Below are positions 25,648 through 63,876 of a DNA stretch of 64,000 bases, piece by piece. The notes below the pieces were generated by a model. It did not search any database and had not been told where the DNA came from. It saw only the letters and a program-made list of their open reading frames with translations. Positions within the stretch are counted from its first letter, which is position 1; every line of letters starts with the position of its first letter. The position numbers and the translations under genes were made by a program. This stretch comes from Hexactinellida sp. DTS-2022 (Eukaryota > Porifera > Hexactinellida). Location: NCBI GenBank assembly GCA_028753945.1, contig JAPNXP010000007.1, positions 1,550,001 to 1,614,000 on the forward strand, in the 5' to 3' direction.

Positions 25648-28163
25648 CAGGGCTTTGAATATATCATGATATATGATATATTTATCATATCTTTTTTTTA
25701 CAAATCGAGATATATCAATCAGTATCATATGACTTGGATTGAGGTGATATTTATATCATATATCTTGTAGTGATATATATATCATTTTATGATATATATA
25801 TATATCACATTGAATGTTCATTGATGCTTTTCAGTTTCATATCTATAAAGTTTTTATTTATTTTTATCATTTGTTATTTGCGACAATTTTCATGTGTAGC
25901 TATTACTAAGTATGTCGAGTGGTCGGAGTGGACCCAAATGGTTTCAAGAGTTTTTCGAGGAGACTGGGGATGGACAGATAGTGAAGTGCAAGGTGTGCCA
26001 GAAGCAGCTGTCGGTGCCGTCAATATGAGGGGGAATCTCCTCCGTCATCTGCAGCCCAAGAAACTGACGGACTGCAGCAGGGCCTACGTGGAATTTACGG
26101 CCAAGGCGTTGCTGAATCAGCCCACCGTCAAGCAAGTCATCAAGGCGCAACGCGAAAGCAAGGCCCCGCTACCTCTCACGATAGTGGCCGCCATCGACGA
26201 ACGGCTCGTCGATTGGGTGGTCGATGGTGAGATGCCGCTGTGTGTGGTCGAGCGTAGCTCCTTCATGCTCCTCGTCCACAGCCTCAATGACCGTTACACC
26301 GTGCCGTCGAGCTACAAGCTGAGGAAGAGCATTTTTGAGAGGGTGAACGAGTCCACTCAAGCACTGGAGAAACCCATCAGCATCTCCAGGTTCGTGACAC
26401 TCACCATCGACGGGATGAGTTCACGACGGAGGTTGAGTTTCATAGGCATCATATGCCAAATGATGTTGGAGGGAGGCGGCGCTGCACTGCCACTATTTCC
26501 GCGGTAGTCATAACTCCAAGAAGTACGCCCAAGTCTTGTTATCTACAATAATGAAGTGGAAGTTAGGAAGCAAACTGGTGCGTATAGGGACGGACAACCA
26601 CTTTAGCATACTTAAGGCCTGCGTGTTGAAATGGAGTTGAATTGCGTGGAGGACGAGGACGAGGAACGTGGCGAGCACACCGAGCTAGACAACAGGGAGG
26701 ACGTGGCAGAGGTGGAGTTGATCACGGACGGCAATGACGAAAATTCGGTGGCTCTCCTACCAATCGAGTGCGACTTTTCGGAGGTGTCCAAGAAATTGCT
26801 GGAGGCGGGTGACGGCGCGTTTCCTGCGGCTTTGAGACAAAAGGGTCTGCTGTTGTTTCACTACCGCTGTGCCAATCATTTAATGAATCTGGCCGTCGGC
26901 GATTTTCTCAACTCGCCACTTCAAGGAAGAAGTGGCTCTCAAATATTGTCATTGATTGGCAAGGCAAGGAAGTGGTGTATCTGTGTGAAAAACTCCTCCC
27001 TGTGCGCAGAAGTGTTCCACACGCACCACTTCAACATCGTGGCGATGAACGAGACGCGGTGGAATTCGATGTATTCGATGATCTCATCCATTGTTGACAA
27101 TAAATGGAAGCTGGATCTCCTCCCCGAATACCCCAAGAGTCCAGTTCCCTCTGCCCATGAGATTCGTATCCTGGAGGAGGTGAGGGAAGCATTGGCGCCG
27201 GCGGTGGAGTTTACGAAGTTGCAAGAGAAGGGGTCATCGACTTCAGGGCTGTTGCTCTGCGCTCTCGAAATGCTCGCTAAGAAGCTTGCCGCCGACTACT
27301 CTGATTTATGCAAGACATTCAGTAATATCGTCTTTGCGAGGTTTAGTGATCCTTGTTCGACCCGTTCTATAAGATCGCGGCCCTTCTTGACCCAAGGTGC
27401 TGCTACTTCTACAAGGATAACGCTGAGTACAGGGAGCTCCTCAACTCAGCCATCGGGGTCGTCCAAGCTCACCGGGAGGACACTGGAGTTAGTGCGTCCA
27501 GCTCATCCGGTGCTGCCACTCTACCTCCCCTCAAGAAAAGCCGGGGATCGATATTCGATTGCCTGCAGACCATCCCGGGAGCGTCAACTGCCTCGACGGG
27601 ACCGTACGACAGTTTCTTGGCCGAATCGATGGGGTTTTTCATGAAGATGGACACCGACGTAGGCCAATTTTGGGCGCTGAATGAAGCTAAGCTACCTATT
27701 CTCGCAGAGCTGGCGAAGGTGTACGTCTTGGCGCCAACATCGACGTCGGAGGTGGAGCGGCTGTTCAGTGTGGCGGGGAGAATGGCCAGTGCTCACAGGA
27801 GCAGCCTTCTCCCCCGCACGATGGAAAACCTCATCATTCTCAAACACAGGGAAAAATTAAAGGCTGCAACTCAAAGTAAGTATTGTCTAATGTCTATGTC
27901 TATTGTATATGTCTATATTTTATTACTCCTTTGCAGGCTTGGCGATGATAGTAGAAGAAGAGGAACTGTCGAGTGAAGAAGTGAAGTCTTTTGAGTGATT
28001 TTTTTTGAAAGATTTGAGTGAAAATTATAGCTGATATATACATCATTGTTAATTTTACTAAACGTGTATATGATATCACTCATATAACATTGGGACGATA
28101 TCATAATATATATATCATATATCATATCAGATATATATCTGATATGATATATTCAAAGCCCTG
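25648..28163 (+). mobile_element. 2.5 kb hAT transposon with perfect 8-bp TSD
   Basis: GGCTAGAT occurs directly at 25640-25647 and again at 28164-28171. The terminal inverted repeats are CAGGGCTTTGAATATATCAT at the left and its exact complement at the right. Both subterminal regions are packed with palindromic ATATCATATATAT/TGATATATATC phrases, likely transposase-binding or fold-prone DNA. It encodes one BED-finger hAT transposase with an intron near the 3' end. The perfect TSD and TIR suggest a fairly recent insertion despite frameshifts in the gene. Confidence 0.93.
25912..27998 (+). pseudogene. BED-finger hAT transposase, frameshifted
   Basis: I choose ATG at 25912 because it opens the frame that carries a BED zinc finger: SGPKWFQEFFEETGDGQIVK, CKVCQ, then after a shift near 26025 NLLRHLQ. 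Order after that: a long alpha-helical region; TLTIDGMSSRRRLSFIGI (first RNase H strand with Asp) at about 26400; a shift; YAQVLLSTIMKWKLG and IGTDNHF near 26530-26610; RCANHLMNLAV at about 26870 and ETRWNSMYSM at about 27050; another shift near 27350; IAALLDPRCCYFY; and the hAT C-terminal dimerisation block FWALNEAKLPILAELAKVYV, TSEVERLFSVAGR, RTMENLIILKH at 27670-27845. A 61-base intron, GTAAGTATTG...CTTTGCAG (27876-27936), splices in frame to an acidic tail ending EVKSFE and TGA at 27996. The coding part is visibly GC-richer than the flanks. At least three frameshifts make it inactive. Confidence 0.88.
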
Positions 28164-43770: not shown

Positions 43771-44179
43771 GAGCTTGACAATCATAATAGTGAATTTACA
43801 CGATAGTAATTGGCAACATTTTTGAGAAAAAGTGAAACATGCATATAGGTGGCTGATTCAATATTATAAAGTATTGTGAACTTCTAGGTTATCGTTCGCT
43901 GCAAAGCGAATTGAATGTTTAAAATGATGTATTTAGTCTTGTTAAATGAAGATTTGACAATTGATTTTCAATAAATTTACAACAAGTTTGTTATGTTTTA
44001 CGACATTGAAGTAAAGTTGAAAGTAAAATAGGTACCTAAAATTACACGCCACAAAGCTCTAGTAAGTATGACTCATTTTATTCGACATAGTTGTTAAAGA
44101 TGTATAGATTCATCTTCAACAAAGCCACATTGATAAGTATGGAATTCCAAACAAATACTAATAAAAATATTTGAGTACC
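43771..44179. other. No gene recognised
   Basis: AT-rich. TCGTTCGCTGCAAAGCGAAT near 43892 is a short Helitron-like hairpin phrase. Confidence 0.3.
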
Positions 44180-44624
44180 TTAATTCCGACGACTGAACTG
44201 GAACTCGGTTGGACGTTGATCATTTGCTGGGTGACGTCTTCACTTCCTACTTTTCTTCTCATTCCGATATACGTTGGGCACATCGGGAGCATCCATAATT
44301 GACGTATAGTAAACATAACCTATCTGATGAATATGTCCGCTGCTCGGTGGTGTACGATATTGTCGGAAGCACCTGGGATTCGTCTAAAAGCTGTGTGGTC
44401 CCAAACATGTTTAATTCTATTAGTGTTAGTTCAATCAGTATGATGTCATCGTCTTCGACAGTTCCAGAGGAGTTTAAACGTTTTCCGGTTCTTCTAGATT
44501 CAGTAAAGCTAGCATCAACTTTTGACTTGGCAGCTAACTTCAGGTTATTCTAATTCTTCCTTATGTCTTCTACACCTCTGGTATTTTCCATGCATCGCAT
44601 TTACTTTGCATGCAACGGTATTCC
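44180..44624 (-). pseudogene. MSANT-like (Harbinger) protein, central fragment
   Basis: It is collinear with 11340-11800: CTCGGTTGGACGTTGATC, TGCTGGGTGACGTCTTC, GGAGCATCCATAATTGACGT and CATCAACTTTTGACTTGGCAGCTAACTTC-type blocks (the last in two parts). Many indels remove the frame; plus-strand frames here are shadows. It ends abruptly at the microsatellite, exactly where the Lys-rich region of the 11.8 kb copy begins. Confidence 0.7.
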
Positions 44625-44867
44625 ACATACATACATACATACATACATACATACATACATACATACATACATACATACATACATACATACATACATACAT
44701 ACATACATACATACATACATACATACATACATACATACATACATACATACATACATACATACATACATACATACATACATACATACATACATACATACAT
44801 ACATACATACATACATACATACATACATACATACATACATACATACATACATACATACATACATACA
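44625..44867. repeat. (ATAC)n microsatellite, about 60 uninterrupted units
   Basis: Perfect ACAT/ATAC repeats over 243 bases. All six frames are open across it (IHTY or MYVC repeats), which explains the overlapping frames of 87-123 residues on both strands. None is a gene. Confidence 0.98.
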
Positions 44868-44947
44868 AACAGGTTTGTTTTTAACAGTACAGTCAATATA
44901 TTATAGAATAAATCTTAAAGTCCTATCCCAATAATGGCAAATTACGA

Positions 44948-46172
44948 AATTATTGAAGGTTGTCGCTGAAGGTATCCGATATTTAAGATGCACTGAATTC
45001 AAGGTGAGTTGTCCTGGACGAGCGAAAATATCTTCAGACATGATTTCAATTACAAATGAACACAAAAATCATTAAGAATCCGAAACAAATGTCGAAATTA
45101 GATAGTTATTAACTAAAGTTAAACGAAAAAGCTGAAAATTCGAAGGGACCGCTTCGTGAACTTTTCGATGAAGATGTCAATGAGTCTAAAGTAGGCGAAT
45201 ATATTAGCTTTGCACGATTGGAGAATACTATGTATAAAAGAAGAAGATTAAACAGACCACAGATTCCCTTGAAAGCAGAAGACGCGATTTCTTTAATGCA
45301 AACTTGCAATGACGAATTCAAAATATATCATTATTTTTCAATTAATGGAACATTGCCAGGTGAGATGACGATTGGATTTACGAGTCCTAAATGGATATGT
45401 GCTCTACAGTCAGGCGGAGATGCAACACTATTGCAGGCTGATGCTACATTTTTGTAGCCCCTAATCAATTCAAACAACTGTTGAATATTTTCCTGGAGTA
45501 CAAGCCCCGTTCCTCACCAGCAATTCACATTGTGATGACAAAAAAGACAGCCACGCTATATGATTGAGTTGTAGATAAAATAAAGAGATGGTACCATTTA
45601 CTGCAACTAGGATAATGACAGACTATGAAAGAGAGCTATTCAATTCTTTATCTTCAGGCTTTCACAATGCAGCAGTTAGTAGTTGTAATTTCATCACGAC
45701 CAAGCACTTTACAAAACTGGAATACTAAAAAATGGATTGGCGACTCTATATACTTCACATCAGGTATTCAGAAAGTGGGCTGAACAGTTAATGTGTTTGC
45801 CTCTTCTTCCATGTAATCAAATCATGGAGATGTTTAACTACCTCAAACCCAAGATACCTGATTTACCAACATCAGAGAATGAAAAAGAAAGAAACTAATC
45901 AGATACTAGAACGATTCTGGTTTGAACAAATAGGCCCTTCAAGACTCTCTGTATTCCAGAATGACAAACGCACAAGTAATGACCTCGAGAGTTTTCACGG
46001 TGAATTGAAAATAAAAATTTGCTTACATAATCCTAATTATTGGAGCTTTATAACAAAAATGAATCAAGTGGTTAAAACTACAGAGATAGATATAGAGAGA
46101 ATTGATAACAACATCCCTATTCGCAGTAATGCCACACCTGAAGCACTCCATAAAAATAGAGTTATCCAAGCC
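44948..46172 (+). pseudogene. FLYWCH-MULE transposase, N-terminal and central part
   Basis: 44948-45075 reads VAEGIRYLRCTEFKVSCPGR, AKISSDMISITNEHKNH, a C-C-H-H layout like FLYWCH fingers of animal MULEs. 45113-45455 (no in-frame stop) ends DATLLQADATF, the catalytic-Asp 'DGTF'-type motif. A shift then gives APNQFKQLLNIFLEYK and HIVMTKKTATLYD. MTDYERELFNSL follows near 45618 (second Asp region), then SGFHNAAVSSCNF. From 45880 an open frame gives ILERFWFEQIG, NDKRTSNDLESFHGELKIKI, PNYWSFI, the MULE 'NN-(L/V)ES-H' block. It stops at 46172, where a hAT element inserts; the protein resumes in frame at 48774. Four or more shifts or stops make it inactive. Confidence 0.8.
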
Positions 46173-46341
46173 CAGGCGCGGCGCCAGGTTTATCGAAGAG
46201 GGGGGGGGGGCAGCCAATTTTTCGGGGGTGGGGGGGGCAAGATTTTATCAAACCAAATCCTTGTACCATAATCTATAAATTCTTAAAACAAATCGGACAG
46301 GCATAATTAACAATTCAGAATATGTAATGTCATAAATGTGC

Positions 46342-48318
46342 CTATTTAAGTACTATCCTTCGATTTTTCTCCATGAATCTGTCGATGATCGCTTCCGTCT
46401 TAATCTTGTGAAGCTCCTCCCTGTTGATAGTCAACACAGCTAGGTCACTAGATCGCTGATCGGAAATAGTCTGTCTGAGGTACATATTGATTCGGCGTAA
46501 AGCACTGAATGAGCGCTCACTTGAGGCACTTGTTATTGGAAGTGTGATGCCTATCTTTACAGCTTGGTGGATCCGGAAGAAGACGCGGTTGTGTGGGAGA
46601 AGGAAGTTGTAGAGCTCCAGTAGGTCTTTGGGGAGATCTTCACCACCGCGGCGAAACATGTCCTTAAGGAGGATGATTTCCGACATAAGGGGTCTCGAAT
46701 CTTCATCAATTAATCCATAGTGCCTACAGAACTTTGTAATGGAGGTATGTTCGCCGAAACTCTCACTACTGGGTTCATAGATACAACTCCACTATACACA
46801 ACCTGATTTTCAATATTTAGGAACCGCTTATCCAGCTCATCCGTCACCCTCTGACATACGGGTAAGAAAACGCGTTTGAGGTGATCATCCTTCCCTATAA
46901 AGTTACCACCGTGGTCTGAACCATCGGAACGGGCCCGACGAATCCTTCGCTGAGATAGAGCCGGAATGTCGCAGTCGGCGATGATCTTCTGTGCCTCCTC
47001 CCAAATCTCGTCCCAGATAAGGTCTACATTCGGAGGACACATTCGGAGCATTCGGAGGGGTTAGACAGACTGGGAATTTCCCAAATCCGCGAGCCATGAT
47101 AGATCTTCTTCTGAGCAGCAACAAACTTAACATGAACTACACTTGTACAATTGTAGAGAGGAAGTTGTGAATCCGCTGTAATAAAGCGAAAATGTCTGCC
47201 ACCCGTCCTATCGCGCCAGCCACGTCCACCACCACCAAGTTCAAGCGATGGGCAAAGCAATGAATGTAAATCGCACGAGCGAAATGCTCTTTGATGCGCT
47301 GTTGGACACCAGATAGGTGGCCACTCATTACAGAGGCACCGTCGTAACACTGTGCAACACATTGATCAATTGACACGCCGTTGTCGCGGAGGGTGTTGAG
47401 AATGGTGTCGCACAACGCCAGTGCGGAGAGATCACTGCAAGCTGTGAATTTGATAAATCGTTCCTTGATCTCGCCCCCCATTACGTATCGCAGGCACAGC
47501 GACAGCTGTTCAACTTTAGATAAATCTCTTGTCTCATCAGCTTGTAGAGTAAATACACCGGCTTCGTTTATTTCGCGGGCGATGTTCTCTGCTAGCAACG
47601 CTGCAGCGGACCGAAAAATATCGTCCTGAATGGTGTGATGGGTGTACTTGGAATTGTCTGGGCCATCAGTGAGACGGGTGAGAACAATGGGGTCATACTC
47701 AGCGAACAGTTCCAGGAAAGCTAGGAAGTTGCAACGGTTGTGACTAGGGATTTCAGTGTCTGCAGTTTCCCTATGGCCCCTGAGGGATATACCCTGCTTC
47801 TCGCAAATGAGAACCGTCTTCACCACACACCCAAGGTAGTGTTTGTTTTCTCTCACTAACTCTTCATGTGCATGATCCAGCTCTGTAGAAATTGTCTGTC
47901 CAGTCTCCTTGGAGCGTTTGTAGTTTATCCACCGCTGCAAAGCTAGTATGTGGGCATCACTGCAGAAATGATCCTTGATTTTGTCAGCCCCTTTTTTGAA
48001 GTTCGACATACCCCCATAACGAAACCGGGAAGTGCTTGTGTGAGCGAAATGACGACAGGCGAAGCAGTAGATAGCATTGTCCTTTTGGGAGTACTCCAGC
48101 CAGGGGTTGGACCGATACCAAGAAGACTGAAACTTTCGTCCGTCCTGCTCGGGGAAACTCCTCAGAAAAGGCTGCATTGGGTTGCAATCCGTGTCTTGAA
48201 TAAAGTCAGACGGTCCAAGAACGAGCGTACGCGCCTTCTTGGAGGCTGAAGGCTCTAATGCATCGTGACTGGCCACCGCACCTGCACCATCCACATGGGT
48301 TTTGAAAAACTCTTCCAT
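46342..48318 (-). pseudogene. ZMYM1/TTF-finger hAT transposase (DUF4371 type), frameshifted
   Basis: The start at 48318 (MEEFFKTHVDGAGAV) opens a 393-residue frame. It contains a TTF-type zinc finger: FQSSWYRSNPWLEYSQKDNA, YCFACRHFAHTS, NFKKGADKIKDHFCSDAH. Then follows a DUF4371-like RNase H region: LQADETRDLSKVEQLSLCLR (first Asp), CVAQCYDGASVMSG (second Asp), AIYIHCFAHRLNLVVV. After a shift near 47150: VHVKFVAAQKKIYH, IPSLS. A second frame from 47051 runs NVDLIWDEIWEEAQKII. From 46686 the C-terminal dimerisation domain reads LPITSASSERSFSALRRINM, YLRQTISDQRSSDLAVLTIN and stops at 46342. About two or three shifts separate long open stretches, so the decay is recent. Plus-strand frames at 47381 and 47950 are shadows. 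Confidence 0.9.
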
Positions 48319-48439
48319 TAGTAAGAAATTAACTAAAAAGTGAGGGTACGATTAATTAACTAATTAATAGAGAATTATGAATTGATTAAGACCTACAAAA
48401 AGTGATAGACGATGCATGCAATCAAAGTGACGAAAGATA

Positions 48440-48594
48440 TACAGGTAAACCTCCCAAAGCGGCACCCATCGGGATAATGATTTTGTGCCGCTTCTCGGAG
48501 GTTGCTCGTACAGGTAAACCTCCCAAAGCGGCACCCATCGGGAGAATGATTTTGTGCCGCTACTCGGAGCTGCCGCTTTGGGAGGTTACCTGTA
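48440..48594. mobile_element. 155-bp MITE with internal 69-base duplication
   Basis: The ends are TACAGGTAAACCTCCCAAAG and the complement of TACAGGTAACCTCCCAAAG. Units starting at 48440 and 48509 are direct copies (period 69) with two or three differences (GGGATAATG versus GGGAGAATG; GCTTCTCGG versus GCTACTCGG). It lies inside the hAT element upstream of its gene and may include promoter-proximal DNA. Confidence 0.7.
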
Positions 48595-48773
48595 TATTGC
48601 ATTTACTTCTAAGATAGTAAATGGGAGAGTATAAAACCCTCCCACTTTACTCGTGAATTACCATAGAATCATCCCTACATTTCAAAATCCTGCCCCTTGC
48701 GGGGGGGCAGGATTCCAAGCTAGGGGGGCAGCTGCCCCCCTGCCCCCCCTCTAGCGCCGCGCCTGTCCAAGAC

Positions 48774-49132
48774 CTCCAAAGAAAATTAATACAGGATGAG
48801 ATCAATTTAATCGATTACTTAGAAACCATATGTTATCAATAGAAAACAGATTTTATGAAATTAGGAAACATAGTCCCATCTACCATTGAGCAAGATGAAA
48901 TAGATGTAATTTCAGAAAGATAAGATTTTGAGATAGCTTTCAACGTAGGAGAACAGTCTAATGAAAGATTATGTCGAATATGTTTTCTCAATGAAGCAGA
49001 CACTCTGATCATGCCATGTCGGCATGCACAAACTTGTAAAGTTGTACTGAAATCATTACTATCTCAGAAGAGCTGAACAAGTGTCCCGTCTGTAGAGGAC
49101 CAATTCAACAATCTTTTCAAATATTCCTTTGA
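48774..49132 (+). pseudogene. MULE C-terminal part with RING finger
   Basis: Read in the frame that continues 46170 across the excised hAT: DLQRKLIQDEINLIDYLETI, two in-frame stops, VPSTIEQDEIDVISER, then ERLCRICFLNEADTLIMPCR, HAQTC. After a one-base shift CTEIITISEELNKCPVCRGP, IQQSF and a stop at 49130-49132. The pattern C-x2-C...C-x-H-x3-C-x2-C...C-P-x-C is a C3HC4 RING, of the compact C-terminal kind found in IAP and MIB E3 ubiquitin ligases. It would give the MULE protein a potential E3 module. The shift and stops show that it is dead here. Confidence 0.75.
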
Positions 49133-49747
49133 ATTGATGATATTTGATTGCCCTAATTTACTTTTAGGCTTCTGTTCTATAATTTTCTTTTCCTTTTCCT
49201 TCTCTAACCATTATCATTTTCCTTCCCTTAATACTTTTTTATCAAATACTCATTATTAAACTGAATAATTAGTAATGGGATAAATGAAATTAATGAATTT
49301 GCGAACCCATGGAACTATTTTTAATTGAAGTGGTATATATACTACACGTTCAATCTCTATTCCACACTTGAATACAATTCGGCCTTATTCCGATTTAAAT
49401 TCGGCCTTATTCCATTCTTGAATACAATTCGGCATTATTCCGGATTGACAATTCGGCTTTATTCCAGTTTCATATTCGGCCTTAACCAGTTTAAAATTCG
49501 GCTTTATTCAGTCAACTCGGATATAGTAGTACTTGATCATTCCAATATTCAAATTTATGTTTAGCTATTATACAACCATTGGCACAGTGTTTTACAGCAC
49601 GTTACTTTTCCCGATATTCTTCATTAAATTGTCACATGCATTAAAATGCCCAATTGCCTTTCTTGCTTAAACTTGTAGTATTGTATCCATATTATGTATA
49701 TCACATAATGTGTTTTATTCTTACCTATTTGTTATTAGAGTATAAGT
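49133..49747. other. Non-coding; AATTCGGCCTTATTCC short repeats
   Basis: Six to seven degenerate copies of ATTCGGC(C/T)TTATTCC lie between 49375 and 49515 (the 79-residue frame at 49325 is their translation). The rest is AT-rich. Confidence 0.55.
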
Positions 49748-49923
49748 CAGTGTTTCTTACGCCTTCAGCTTTCAAATTCAACTTCCGCACCCTTTAGCTT
49801 TCAAAATAAACTCTCGCACCAATGGTAAACGTAATATCGTTAATTTTCTACTATAAACAGAACTTGCACTCTTTTCCCACACCCCCCAGAATCGTACCTC
49901 GCACCCCTGGTTGAGAACCACTG
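49748..49923. mobile_element. 176-bp hAT-type MITE, perfect 8-bp TSD
   Basis: GTATAAGT at 49740-49747 and 49924-49931. The right end, complemented, is CAGTGGTTCTCAACCAGGGG, a terminus widespread in animal hAT MITEs; the left end is CAGTGTTTCTTACGCC. The interior has three CTCGCACC/TCCGCACC phrases. Confidence 0.87.
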
Positions 49924-50449
49924 GTATAAGTAATCAATTATGGCTACTCCAGTTACGAAGTGGCCCGGGGTGGCCCGGGTAAGTGCCTGATTTTTCAAAA
50001 GTGGCCCGGGAATAAAACTAATTGAAGAGCCCTGCTCTAAATCAACAACAATGAGACTATATGTATTATGAATGAGTTTATGTATGGAATATACGAAACT
50101 TGTATCAGTTCCTACAAAAAGCTATAATCTATCAACAAATTAATCATATTTCGTGAAGAATTCAGTGATTTTTGACTGAACCTGGGGAAGCTGCCAGATT
50201 CTGTCCTCAAGGTTAGCAATTTCAACTGGCGGTACATAGAGGATCTCGACATTATAGAGAATCTAATAATGGGGGCAAAATAACCCGATGAAAAACACAT
50301 TAAGAATACACATATTTGGATGGTCCAGGTGGCGAAAAAAACTAAATAATTCATATATATAAATTGTGTTATGAAGCAACAAGGAGAAGCAAGGAGGCAA
50401 AATAATCCGGGGAGGCAAAAAAAAACCCGATTTCGACTGTATAGATAGA
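49924..50449. other. Non-coding; GGCCCGGG repeats and an unpaired MITE end
   Basis: GTGGCCCGGG recurs three times at 49961-50010, followed by GAAGAGCCCTG at 50026, which looks like a hAT terminus without a found partner. Near 50430, AAACCCGATTTCGACTG|TA looks like a Tc1/mariner-type terminus. The 122-residue minus frame (50112-50480) crosses this and is not supported. Confidence 0.4.
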
Positions 50450-51218
50450 TATTATTATTTGAGGCCGATTCCAACTCCAAAAGAATAGAAATTTTTGATT
50501 AATGCGCGTATTGCGTATAAACGTATTATAAGTGATAACTTATACTTAATACGCTGTCCATCAGTACGTATTATATGCTAAATCTGAAAGTGGACGATTC
50601 ACAAATCTTATTTTTGGTTAATAGGGGTAACTTTTGGCGCCCGACAACATGTTGAGGTTTCCACCCGAAATATCTCACACATCATCAAGTTATGACGTCA
50701 TTAACACATTTTATAAGCATGACCATTCACTTAATTGCACATAATTCGCGCCCTCTAAGAGATGAAATCTGAGATTTTTAATAGAACATGATGAGGAGAC
50801 GTTGGTCACACCACATTCCACTATTTTAATCCACTATTAAGCCTATTACGTTTTATAAACAATGTTAGAACTTAGAAGTATAAATCTGCAGCGAAGCGAC
50901 CTAGCAAGCGAAGCACGCTAGCTATTGTAAATACAAGATGCTAATAAGTAATCACATTTGTACTATACTGTCTAAACTATGAATCGAATAACAATAAAAG
51001 AATAACAATTTAACCGAAAGTTGTTCAAAGCAAATCCTATGAGGGCCATATTATAATTATTGCAAACGTAAATAAGTAATATATTATACGTATTACACGT
51101 AATAAGTATCCAATAAAACACCTGTTAAACAAATAAGGAAATTAGCGACGTTAAATCAAAAGTAAAGTTAATACTTCAGTTCGAATTTAGTGCATAAATT
51201 CATAGTGAATACGGCTGC
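50450..51218 (+). repeat. PIF-Harbinger-type end region split by a Helitron
   Basis: GGCCGATTCCAACTCCAAAAG at the left matches 12881 and CATAGTGAATACGGC at the right matches 13064. Blocks on either side of the Helitron match 15870-16100. The right part has the TTCGAATTTAG-type repeats. Confidence 0.55.
50626..50921 (+). mobile_element. Helitron, 5' and part of the middle missing
   Basis: CTTTTGGCGCCCGACAAC, CTCACACATCATCAAGTTAT, CGCACATAATTCGCGCCC, then TCTGCAGCGAAGCGACC and CGAAGCACGCTAG at the end. The hairpin segment is deleted. The sister sequence near 15990-16010 (TTATTGTAAATATAAAATGC) continues across the insertion point. Confidence 0.6.
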
Positions 51219-53213: not shown

Positions 53214-54450
53214 TTTTACTGTGCCGACTAACTATAGTATAGTGGCCCAGTATTGAAATGACTGCCTTTATTACTGTGCCGACTATACTATAGTGGCCCA
53301 GTATTGAAATGACTGCCTTTATTACTGTGACGACTATACTATAGTATAGTGGCCCAGTTCTAATCTCACTGCCTTGGTTATTATTCTTCCGTAGCTCATT
53401 CACTGAACAGAGTTTAATTAACTAAGAACCCAAAATTTCAGGATATGTGCCTCATGGGTTACAGATGTACACCTGGGGTCACGATTTTTGATAAAAAAAA
53501 TTTGGACACATTTTTGCACCTGTTTAATATTTAAACAGGAATAATAAATAGTGCGCGAATATTTAATTTATATGCATTCGATAGAGAATTAAATTCTACA
53601 CCATTTCACAGTACAAGAAATTTAAATTGGACTTCGTTTGAGCCCAAATGAGTTGCAAGTTTCCTTTGTTTACTAACACTTCAGTTCAATGGAAAGTGTT
53701 AAATCTAATTCTATTGTTTCAACTCGTTATTATAATATTGATTCAACTTGTGAGATCGAGTAGGCTTTTATTTTCCAATTGAAAACTAAGATTTTACATT
53801 CCATAACAACGACAGACTATGTGATTATATTCCTTCTGCAAGAATACTCTTGCACTATTAATATACTGACGTAATTAATTATAATTAATTCAGTCAGTAT
53901 ATGACTTATATTGATGCTTCCAATTTGTTTATTAGGGGTTATCGAGTGTGTGGAATTGAAATTTGATAGCCAAATTAATTAATTAATTATTAATGACAAA
54001 ATAATTTAACTTAATAATTGTAAGTTGACATTGAAATTGGTGTTATATTATAAATAATATATATAATTATGTATACTAATTAAATAAAAATAATAACCTC
54101 AGAGATTATAGAAGATAGAAACAAAATTCCAATTGATCAATTGGTCCTTATGGCACTACCACCTATACAAGTGGGTCTTGACACCTTGAGGTGATGATGA
54201 CAACGTTAAAAAATGTGTTTTAACAATTTTGTGAATTCTATATTTAAAATGGGTTGGTTGGTGCTGGGTAATGCCCCAACAGTGACAAAAAATGCTGAGT
54301 CATCAGCTATTACATTCTACTCAAACATCTCTAAAATGAAGTGAACTAAATGCAAACTTCAACCACTATAAGGGTCGATGCCTTCTGAAAGACGTTTATG
54401 AAATAATTTAACACCTTCATAGTAATGATGACATGGCGAAAAAAAATCCC
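53214..54450 (-). repeat. Dispersed repeat R1, copy C, with triplicated terminus
   Basis: TACTGTG(C/A)CGACTATACTATAG followed by TGGCCCAGTATTGAAATGAC occurs three times in tandem (53217, 53274, 53326) before TCTCACTGCC. 53480-54440 is then the reverse complement of the R1 body. 54440-54560 has the CTTTGGAGGCACTA foldback head. Confidence 0.7.
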
Positions 54451-61197: not shown

Positions 61198-61343
61198 CGG
61201 TGCTTGACGTATAGAATTTCTGTTGATATATTAATTAATTACCACCATGTAGCTTATGTATGTTTATTTCGTAATTTTTTGGTGGCTAGGGATGAATTTT
61301 ATGGTGGCGTTAACCATCAAACCACCGCAATTGTCGAGCCCTG
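61198..61343. mobile_element. 146-bp hAT-type MITE, related to 34777
   Basis: Candidate 8-bp flanks ATAATCGA and GTAATCTA (6/8). The ends are CGGTGCTTGACG and the complement of CAGGGCTCGACAATTG. The interior GGTGGCTAGGGATG and GTGGCGTTAACCATC resemble the GGTGGCGTTAGCCACC of 34777-34955. Confidence 0.6.
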
Positions 61344-61361
61344 GTAATCTATTGTTATTAT

Positions 61362-63876
61362 GTGTTAACCATATCCATACTATTTATATATAAGAGGCAC
61401 AAAAAGTTAAATCTTCATTCAGTTTTCAGCTACATGTCTTGTTCACTAGTAATACCAGATAATATTTTAAACATTTGGGATGAGTATCACGTAGATTCAC
61501 TCTACAAAGTATGCCGATTCTGTTATATGCGGCTATCGCCAAAAGATTTGCCAAAGAAGAATTTGCGACTGACTCCTACTAATCTGGTGATTGACAGAGC
61601 TTATAAGTTTTACAACATAGATCTTCGCACTGAAATAGTGGACCTTTATAAGCCAAAGATATTTTGTAGTAGTTGTAGGTCACGGTTATCAGACTTAGAA
61701 AGTGGTAAACTTAACAGACAAAAATGGCATTTTGATAGATCAAATATCGAATCCAACCAAAATGTCGAAATTCCTTATAACGTTACTCGTAAGGGGATTC
61801 TCTGTACCCATACAGATCGATGTTATATATGCAAAATATACTCGTCCTCCATAAATAATTATCATTCAAAACTCAAGACTCAAGGTCCTAATCCTTGTAG
61901 GCCTATAGAACAATCCCCTGTCAGACTAATGTGCAGCAAGTGTGGAGTGAGTGATGATATTCATGATATCGACTTTTGCAAACGAGTTATGAAACGCCCA
62001 CAAGTTTCTCAGCAAGCTGGAAAACTTTTCGCAGAGAGGGTGGAATCTCGTGGATACACTAAATATCTCACTGCTAACTTCCTGGTAAATACCCTCGAAG
62101 GTTCAGTTAGTGACAGTAGCCTTATTACTCCATTAAATACTCTATCATTAGTATTCATTACATCATCCTTTCGATTCGAATAATCAATTAGCTGTAACTA
62201 CAATTCCGTATAAGAGTGCAAAATACAACAACATTAGTAAACATGTTTTGAGCAGAGAGGCAGTTCGAGATATGCAGAGGTTAGGACATCTTGGCTTGGG
62301 TAAAAAGTTTTTGAACTTGGAAGAATTCTTGGCAAAGAAGGGATTTGTTTTCCTATGGGGGGAATAAAAGGAACATGGGACGAAAAATGGTCTATATTTG
62401 GAGATATATTCACTTCAGTATCCATCAAGCTCAAGCGTTCAGCAACAGAAAACTTTGAACTAATTCCAATTGGAATTTGTACTGATGTTGAAAGATCATT
62501 GAATATTATCACGCATCAACAGTCAAATAGAATCTCTAGACTTAAAGTACAGCTTGATGGCGGCAAACAATTCCTCAAACTGTCTGTCAATATCGTTGCA
62601 ATGCTTCCGAATAGTCTGTATCTACTAAGTCCTAATAGCGTTCTTTCAAATTTTATAATTGCGATGGGTCACGCGTCTGAAAATTCAGAAAATCTGCGGT
62701 CAATCCTAAATTTCACATCAATTCGAAACATCTTTAACTTAGGTATCCCTATCCAAATTGCTTGTGATTTTAAAGAGGCTGCAATGCTCGTTGGAATTCA
62801 GCAGGCATCCAGCAAGTACCCCTGCCCATTCTGTACATGGAGGAAGAACACAAAATGTACTGGAACACCTTCTCGTGCAAGAATATATAAAGAATTAATG
62901 AAAGACCTTCATTCAAAAAACTATAGCGTTTCCCATGAACCAATTATCCGGTGGTCAGATTCACCTATGGAAATACTTGCTCCTCTCCATATACTTCTAG
63001 GCAATGGCGGCGCCAAGGGTGGTCAAGGGTGGTCAGCTGACCACCCTATCAAAGTGCTTGACACCCTCCTGACTATACTATATTTGATGTTTGACCCACA
63101 AAATACGCATACTGACCCATGGGTGACCACCTAGTGGTGGAGCACACGCGCCGCCACTGCTTCTAGGTCTCGTAAATCGGTTGTATGGTGTGGCTAGGCC
63201 ATCCTAGAATGCGACTAACCGATATGACCATTTACTATATAAACAACACTGTCAAGCTTTACAAAGATGCAAAGTATATCGATCTGAGTACTGGGATGGC
63301 GCTTTAGAAGGAAATTCTTGTTCTCGACTTTTGGATAATTTAGATATTATACCATTCCCCAGCCATTATACCTCCCTGATAAATGCATTGAAATCGTTAA
63401 AGATGGTAAAAGACAGGTGTATGGGTCTTTTTAGAATGCCTATTTGGGAAGAGAGTATTTGTCTATTCAGGGAGTCATGGAATGCAACCGGCTTACCTGG
63501 GTCATTAAAGTCACACATACTTTCCGACCATCATACGGATTACTTCCTCCTTTACGAACCTCAATCAAAAGCAGGGGCAGCAATAAGTTCAGAGCAGAGC
63601 GGAGAGATGTTGCATTCCAGAATGCAAACTCCTTGGGAACTTAGATATAAGACTAATGTAGAGCACGAGTTATACCCACAGCGATTGGTTGATTGTATGG
63701 TGACGTGTAATTATTATTTACGGTGGGATGATGCAGAAAGGCTATCTAAAGAACAGGGGAATATATTTGCTGATGAATGTAGAGACTGTCATGATGAGGA
63801 GAGTTATGACAATATTGAAAGGATAGAGCTCCATAATTGGGACACAGATGAAGAATCTTGTGATATTGATTACTAA
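61362..63876 (+). pseudogene. Long CxxC-rich protein of an unnamed, transposase-like family
   Basis: The probable start is ATG 61434 (MSCSLVIPDNILNIWDEYHV); the in-frame ATG at 61362 is also possible. The N-terminal third is zinc-finger-like: CRFC (~61513), CSSC (~61668), CTHTDRCYIC, CSKC. A shift near 62160 gives DSNNQLAVTTIPYKSAKYNN; a second shift falls in a G run near 62355. The central part has LKVQLDGGKQFLKLSVNI, IPIQIACDFKEAAMLVGIQQ and YPCPFCTWRK. A MITE splits the gene at 63002. After it, one in-frame TAG and then a single frame to 63876 hold QRCKVYRSEYWDGALEGNSC, SEQSGEMLHSRMQTPWE and an acidic tail DTDEESCDIDY. From memory, similar proteins are repeated in cnidarian and arthropod genomes as 'uncharacterized'. 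I infer a DDE-type core from D(DGGK), D(ACDFK), E(SEQSGE). Function unproven. Confidence 0.6.
63002..63159. mobile_element. 158-bp hAT-type MITE inside the coding region, perfect TSD
   Basis: CTTCTAGG at 62994-63001 and 63160-63167. The ends are CAATGGCGGCGCC and the complement of CAGTGGCGGCGCG. The interior carries GGTGGTCA/TGACCACC palindromes (AGGGTGGTCAGCTGACCACC). Removing it together with one octamer restores the reading frame across the junction (...LHILLG then LVNRLYGVARPS). Confidence 0.92.

Follow-up and report, generated by a model that had tools for sequence, protein, structure and literature searches.

A MULE transposase clade with an IAP-like RING finger at its C-terminus in a hexactinellid sponge genome

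A 2015 paper gives RAG1 and two subgroups of Chapaev as the only known elements with RING fingers and places the Chapaev RING after the Chapa domain (PMC4411706). Among animal MULE DNA transposons, the most complete Ghost element, which comes from the aphid Myzus cerasi, has a truncated transposase open reading frame (ORF) and, next to it, a 420-bp ORF that encodes a RING zinc finger (PMC6446971). That paper is the only one in the open-licence PMC literature in which MULE, transposase, RING finger and FLYWCH come together, and no other MULE transposase with a RING was found there by title or abstract, subscription papers and Repbase lying outside the search. Here we describe a 64,000-nucleotide stretch of the Hexactinellida sp. 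DTS-2022 genome (the window; positions 1550001–1614000 of one contig, in a 112.4-Mb genome of 18 contigs) that holds a dead, broken copy of a jumping gene, a MULE DNA transposon with a RING finger at the end of its transposase. A sequence-only reading of the window had proposed a FLYWCH-MULE transposase frame ending in a RING of the ubiquitin ligase (E3) type. Our analysis partly confirms what that reading observed in the window and supports its central interpretation, as intact relatives carry the whole arrangement in one open frame. Its view that such a fusion is unusual needs tempering, as one earlier case of a RING close to a MULE transposase is on record (PMC6446971). What is new here is a large MULE group in which the RING lies inside the transposase frame and appears to be constrained about as strongly as the catalytic core.

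Intact relatives and their number in the genome

When the genome was searched with pieces of the window copy, relatives were recovered in which the N-terminal piece, the middle piece and the RING share one open frame. In the C1 copy (L012), this ORF spans 557 amino acids from stop to stop, or 552 from the methionine, and unites FLYWCH, MULE and RING; the Pfam profiles MULE (33.9 bits, cut-off 27.6) and zf-C3HC4_3 (47.4 bits, cut-off 27) exceed their cut-offs, and FLYWCH scores 22.2 bits, just under 23.6. C1 and C2 share 99.7% identity across 2.3 kb. Both end in minisatellite-like inverted repeats of about 300 bp with imperfect outer tips, and they are the two copies with both ends read, where the 8-bp target duplications differ, being GGACAGAA and CTCTCATA, respectively. 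The near-identity, the inverted ends and the different duplications together indicate recent, real transposition. The defining features of a MULE, namely the MULE DDE domain, a target duplication of 8–11 bp and long terminal inverted repeats, are all found, the duplication and the ends in C1 and C2. The copies vary in condition: the C2 frame is shorter at its N-terminus (485 amino acids), C11 has a stop codon between the core and the RING, and C1 carries a 0.9-kb insertion downstream of the ORF. The sequence at the start of that insertion also occurs in the window at 53216–53358 as repeats of TTACTGTGCCGACTATACTATAGTATAGTGGCCCAG..., a mobile repeat present in both places.

Two further arrangements were seen among the relatives. 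An internally deleted copy (L013/L043; G000:C18:3098553-3099074) joins a portion of the FLYWCH region directly to the linker and RING in a 225-amino-acid frame with no catalytic core, a shape that might make a DNA-binding, RING-bearing repressor possible. At G000:C13:4112034-4113632 and 4115452-4117050, two RING-MULE copies of 549 amino acids each, with the same score (58% to the query), lie in inverted orientation about 1.8 kb apart and form a large natural palindrome.

The RING is common to many MULE families of this genome and not to one. The whole-genome searches covered one genome and scored only the best candidates (150 for each profile or piece search; 81 of 2533 first-look candidates with the L072 ORF), and all counts are lower bounds. 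With the RING profile PF13920, 78 of the best 150 matches have MULE sequence upstream of them in the same orientation, within 1.5 kb for Pfam matches and 1.8 kb for homology matches; this count drew on all listed Pfam MULE and RING matches and on part of the homology matches to the window pieces. The controls for this set gave no opposite-strand case and none with the RING upstream within 1.5 kb. Among the same best 150 RING matches, the RING and a Pfam MULE match share one open frame at 14 loci. The number of MULE-linked RINGs rises to at least 91 of the best 150 C3HC4_3 matches once 18 picked matches are added (16 of the 89 from the L072 search and two from the window-piece search, with 2.6 kb allowed from the 5' end of the match), the strand and position controls belonging to the set of 78. 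In the reverse view, 20 of the best 150 Pfam MULE matches have one of the best 150 RING matches downstream. The search with the L072 ORF returned 89 matches, 19 of them stop-free and full length, the query itself included; full length means a match that starts no later than query residue 23 and reaches at least residue 528, the fingers themselves having been read in the fetched members. One of the 19 (L082) has a damaged finger that lacks the second Cys. Beyond this genome, viral contigs yielded no confirmed relative to one protein query and one alignment query, bacterial and archaeal contigs yielded none, and NCBIfam returned no family for two proteins. In the genome itself, (TTAGG)5 occurs at one site and (TTAGGG)4 at none.

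Conservation of the RING and its likeness to IAP RINGs

We aligned 15 ORFs from 15 loci, 32–70% identical to the first, of which 14 are full length and one (L023) lacks the N-terminal part. A long frame that includes a RING was the criterion for choosing these ORFs, and 13 fetched loci were taken on that basis; L082 was left out of this alignment and kept in the tree described below. Within this set, the eight zinc ligands are invariant in 15 of 15, and so are the Pro that precedes the third Cys, the Pro of the CPxC motif and the Arg that follows. At E ≤ 0.01, Pfam finds MULE in 15 of 15, zf-C3HC4_3 in 15 of 15 and FLYWCH in eight of 15. In the FLYWCH region, C38, C45, H64 and H66 (L070 numbering) are at least 90% conserved, and D183, D245 and E365 in the core, which we take to be the DDE triad, are invariant. 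In all 16 tails compared (the 15 and L084), the second Cys is preceded by Ile or Val, and the linchpin Arg is present with an aromatic residue ten positions after it (Phe in 15, Tyr in one); only one or two residues separate this aromatic from the end of the protein.

The pN/pS (nonsynonymous over synonymous) ratios, which are rough values, were compared in 11 pairs and amount to 0.17–0.41 for the RING, 0.25–0.33 for the MULE core and 0.38–1.09 for the acidic linker. The RING lies below the linker in 11 of 11 pairs, most narrowly in L071/L072 (0.29 vs 0.38). By these measures, the RING appears about as constrained as the catalytic core, whereas the acidic linker before it does not.

The best match of the L012 RING among solved structures is cIAP1 (6.1e-7), aligned to the tail. 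A profile of 15 RINGs, from loci partly different from those of the 15 ORFs, finds cIAP2 (5.3e-11), cIAP1 (1.6e-10), MEX3C (2.6e-10) and MGRN1 (5.2e-10), then XIAP and others, with MDM2 lower, and its alignment to cIAP2 and cIAP1 runs through the tail Phe. The C-terminal IAP/MIB style suggested by the sequence-only reading stands as far as IAP is concerned; MIB is the poorer comparison, MIB1 reaching 3e-5 with the full-length profile, for which 60 of the 98 matches are listed, all RING proteins. In the cIAP1–UbcH5B–ubiquitin complex, the linchpin is Arg606, and the donor ubiquitin is packed against Phe616 from the other chain, a mode of action attributed to dimeric RINGs that have a Phe or Tyr at the C-terminus (PMC6349121). 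The clade RING resembles cIAP1 in having the same residue types and the same spacing of ten as between R606 and F616. With cIAP1, cIAP2, XIAP, BIRC7, MEX3C, MGRN1 and MDM2, it shares the C3HC4 RING and the linchpin Arg, and with the IAPs its position at the extreme C-terminus and the aromatic ten residues after the linchpin. Unlike in the IAPs, the RING is fused to a DNA transposase, and the Pfam families listed for the 15 ORFs and for L012 include neither BIR nor CARD. At the level of sequence, the clade RING carries the marks expected of a dimeric ligase that is active.

MULE frames that end before a RING do exist. We picked 12 loci from the Pfam MULE matches as long MULE frames without a RING among the best 150 RING matches; seven have no RING (L086–L092), two proved complete (L083, L084) and three are broken or have lost it (L085, L093, L094). 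Across L086–L092, no complete RING-like motif was found in six frames of about 2.1–2.5 kb, by a motif scan that detects only a complete finger (the partial finger of L085 escaped it). Two of the seven, L087 and L088, are almost duplicates of each other. Six of the seven RING-less rows form, with the PHD-like MULE L014, a branch of their own with support of 100/100, and the rest of the tree consists of RING rows and a FAR1-type outgroup. Two loci, L068 (broken RING) and L069 (decayed, no RING read), had been fetched as outgroups; L069 and L088 are absent from the tree. Within the RING part of the tree, the long frames without a whole RING (L068, L082, L085, L093, L094) have a finger that is damaged, frame-shifted or interrupted, and these look like decay. 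The approximately unbiased test (p-AU 0.242) does not reject a single RING clade, in a tree where long branches are in play, and both one gain of the RING and one gain followed by one loss fit the data.

Two loci deserve separate mention. L014:2003-3310 belongs to another MULE family, with FLYWCH over and PHD and MULE under their cut-offs, and has a zinc module of another kind at the opposite end. L093 (G000:C18:1565000-1567200) is near-identical to L070, and its frame leaves the RING after NMGG into repeat-like sequence, a natural loss of the RING.

The window copy, its hAT insertion and neighbouring features

The window copy itself (Table 1) is 94% identical to C1 over 44969–46170 and again over 48766–49226 (blastn), and its homology to C11 extends to 49523; the right end was placed at AACTC by comparison with C1 and C2. 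Its right terminal repeat matches the inverted left and the direct right ends of C1 and C2, and no left terminal repeat was found upstream by homology comparison of the stretch 44000–51000. On their own, the three MULE-region pieces match no Pfam family at E ≤ 1, so that FLYWCH and MULE are demonstrated on the relatives and not on the window. In the tblastn alignment, the last piece of the catalytic region (45582–46193) extends into the hAT, and ORF 45689–45898 is a part of the final stretch before the hAT that can be read only in another frame. By comparison, the RING is recognized in the window directly: 48957–49070 alone matches zf-C3HC4_3 with 33.6 bits (cut-off 27, E 3.4e-8). The full C3HC4 finger noted in the window tail is therefore real, but the frame changes inside it, between zinc ligands five and six.

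Table 1. Features of the RING-tailed MULE copy in the window and of the hAT element inserted in it
Feature	Coordinates	Strand	Basis and remarks
(ACAT)n microsatellite	44625..44871	.	TRF, 61.8 copies, 99% matches; occupies the expected place of the left terminal repeat
RING-tailed MULE remnant with hAT inside	44896..49518	+	blastn homology to other copies
FLYWCH-region remnant	44937..45132	+	tblastn pieces 44937-44966, 44968-45132; stops present
Decayed MULE catalytic region, several frames	45116..46172	+	tblastn pieces 45116-45451, 45451-45585, 45582-46193
Left octamer TCCAAGCC of hAT target duplication	46165..46172	+	
hAT element (DUF4371, hAT dimerisation domain), coding frame broken	46173..48765	-	2593 bp; termini and octamers
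Right octamer TCCAAGAC of hAT target duplication	48766..48773	+	
Transposase C-terminal region and linker, stops present	48766..48962	+	tblastn 48765-49040, 92% identity to C1 protein
C3HC4 RING and C-terminal tail, ending Phe-Leu-stop	48963..49132	+	Pfam; tblastn 49043-49129, 90% identity
Right terminal inverted repeat, ~50-bp minisatellite units	49358..49518	+	TRF 49358-49466, 49376-49509

The hAT element reported from the letters alone is likewise real. Its ends are CAGGCGCGGCGC, the flanking octamers agree at seven of eight positions, and two separate frames hold Pfam matches over cut-off, namely PF14291 (72.1 bits), PF25431 (32.3) and the hAT dimerisation domain PF05699 (33.3, cut-off 21.4); the insert thus combines an 8-bp target duplication, short inverted ends and a dimerisation domain, as expected of a hAT. 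The MULE frame had been described as bisected in frame by it. This is right at the join, where the C1, C2, C11 and C12 copies lack the hAT and read KNRVIQDLQRKL unbroken through the site, so that the junction KNRVIQ/DLQRKL is correct and no excision needs to be assumed; the hAT would have arrived in this MULE copy secondarily. Elsewhere the description does not hold, as the intact C1 protein aligns to the window (tblastn) in frames 3, 1, 2, 1 and 3 before the hAT and 3 and 2 after it, stop codons stand on both sides, and, relative to C1, the FLYWCH region has lost about 57 bp.

Other features of the window lie outside the MULE frame. Inside the hAT, at 48440–48569, a 69-bp unit is present about twice (TACAGGTAAACCTCCCAAAGCGGCACC...), with similar translated units in L064, and is probably a nested small element. 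The stretch 25743–27976 is GC-rich (52% at 26001–28000, most of the window having 29–40%), carries a hAT dimerisation domain at 27350–27976 (49.3 bits) and is possibly a recently arrived element. At 61314–63876, three long open frames of 289, 276 and 222 amino acids stand in a row; the first two were scanned and have no Pfam match at E ≤ 0.01, and the three look like another transposon protein.

Possible role of the RING and comparison with known systems

The explanation that we favour, with moderate confidence, is that an old MULE clade carries a fused, E3-competent IAP-type RING whose most likely role would be self-ubiquitylation. The transposase would be one protein with an N-terminal FLYWCH-like finger, presumably for DNA binding, a MULE DDE core, a variable acidic linker and the C-terminal RING. 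The RING would fold like the dimeric IAP RINGs and pair two transposase chains; it would bind an E2 charged with ubiquitin, and the C-terminal aromatic of one chain would hold the ubiquitin on the E2 of the other, making the RING an active ubiquitin ligase. Inside the transposase–DNA complex, it could then ubiquitylate the transposase itself, a parallel to self-ubiquitylation by RAG1, and may in this way limit the amount of the enzyme or help to dismantle the complex after strand transfer. Jones and Gellert are said to have found in 2003 that RAG1 ubiquitylates itself. The fusion of ligase and enzyme, together with the example of RAG1, leads us to favour the transposase as its own target; this target is a first guess, of which we are less sure than of ligase activity. 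More tentatively, and somewhat short of an even balance in our view, the clade may have permanently built an IAP-type, trans-activating dimeric ligase into its transposase, with assembly of the complex also switching on ubiquitylation of the complex or of adjacent chromatin, as an independent parallel to the RAG1 RING in another superfamily.

Several observations count against the favoured explanation. FLYWCH passes E ≤ 0.01 in only eight of the 15 members (L023, one of the 15, lacks the region) and is below the Pfam cut-off in L012. Broken copies vary in the tail: L026 has Asn for the tail Phe, L016 and L062 end early, and L082 lacks the second Cys. The 15 of 15 describes conservation within the clade and not the frequency of RINGs among MULEs, as the ORFs were preselected. 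The RING pN/pS is a little above that of the core in seven of 11 pairs and below it in four, with synonymous sites near saturation. MEX3C and MGRN1 are also close matches of the RING profile, and the full-length profile ranks MGRN1 first (5e-13). The best tree needs two changes, and a single RING clade occurs in 0% of 200 bootstrap trees. Finally, ligase activity, fold and dimer are all predicted from the sequence, and self over host targets is favoured only by the fusion and the RAG1 precedent.

The alternative that survives best, which we still regard as unlikely, is an active ligase with a host target: a silencing or chromatin protein would be removed or marked, leaving the element free to move. 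VANC, the VANDAL anti-silencing protein, provides a parallel (PMC6446971). Even deeply diverged members retain the RING, the genome is full of MULE copies, and the RING-less frames imply that the RING is not needed for MULE catalysis as such, all of which would suit a host target. However, fusion in place of a separate ORF favours action at the transposase–DNA complex.

A slightly more doubtful alternative makes the RING structural, dimerising the transposase or binding DNA with no transfer of ubiquitin. The C-terminal cysteine-rich cross-brace domain of piggyBac is a model for such a role, transposases act as oligomers, and a C-terminal zinc finger is often an end-binding or dimerising module. 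IAP-type RINGs do dimerise (PMC6349121). Yet a mere dimer module would have no need of the Ile/Val, the CPxC Pro, the linchpin Arg and the Phe/Tyr at +10 that are kept in 16 of 16 tails, which argues for ligase function without proving it, as the tail also takes part in the cIAP1 dimer interface (PMC6349121).

That the RING-MULE ORFs are domesticated host genes is very improbable: the purifying selection across deeply diverged members would fit, but selection on an autonomous transposase yields the same pattern, and mobile elements are indicated by scattered copies that are almost identical, have terminal repeats and differ in their target duplications, as well as by the many decayed copies. 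That the RING is a host gene beside a MULE landing site, or a chance frame, is hardly credible and was rejected on the single-frame copies and the strand and position controls, since the broken window frame taken alone would allow it but the RING shares one open frame with Pfam MULE at 14 loci, is MULE-linked in at least 91 of the best 150 matches, and is enclosed by the terminal repeats in copies that have target duplications.

The fusion hints that these elements may regulate the transposase they encode, or their host, by tagging proteins. As a one-protein system, the clade makes transposon use of ubiquitin to limit or place its own enzyme testable and comparable with RAG1. Much of the apparent RING repertoire of this genome (at least 91 of the best 150 C3HC4_3 matches) resides in transposons, which can mislead the annotation of E3 ligases.

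Our comparison with known systems sets the clade apart in several respects. The Chapaev RING is N-terminal to the core. Unlike RAG1 and Chapaev, the present proteins have a MULE core by Pfam and an IAP-like RING at the very C-terminus, and they do not fall within the Transib or Chapaev type. They are alike in being transposase-derived proteins with a RING, and the RAG1 RING has ubiquitin-ligase activity (PMC4411706). Phantom and Rehavkus resemble the clade in FLYWCH in some Phantoms (FLYWCH-like here), minisatellites at the ends or after the ORF in some elements, and target duplications of 8–10 or 9 bp; by contrast, the Table 1 passages of that paper list no RING for them and a PHD finger for Rehavkus (PMC6446971). 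Ghost is an animal MULE clade with a RING recorded in one element. This RING is described as a separate ORF in a truncated element with no ends or target duplication detected, and Table 1 there lists SWIM (PMC6446971). In the sponge, by comparison, the RING shares the frame of the MULE core in many ORFs, and ends and 8-bp duplications are in hand for two copies. Compared by description only, the present clade may be a complete relative of the Ghost MULE.

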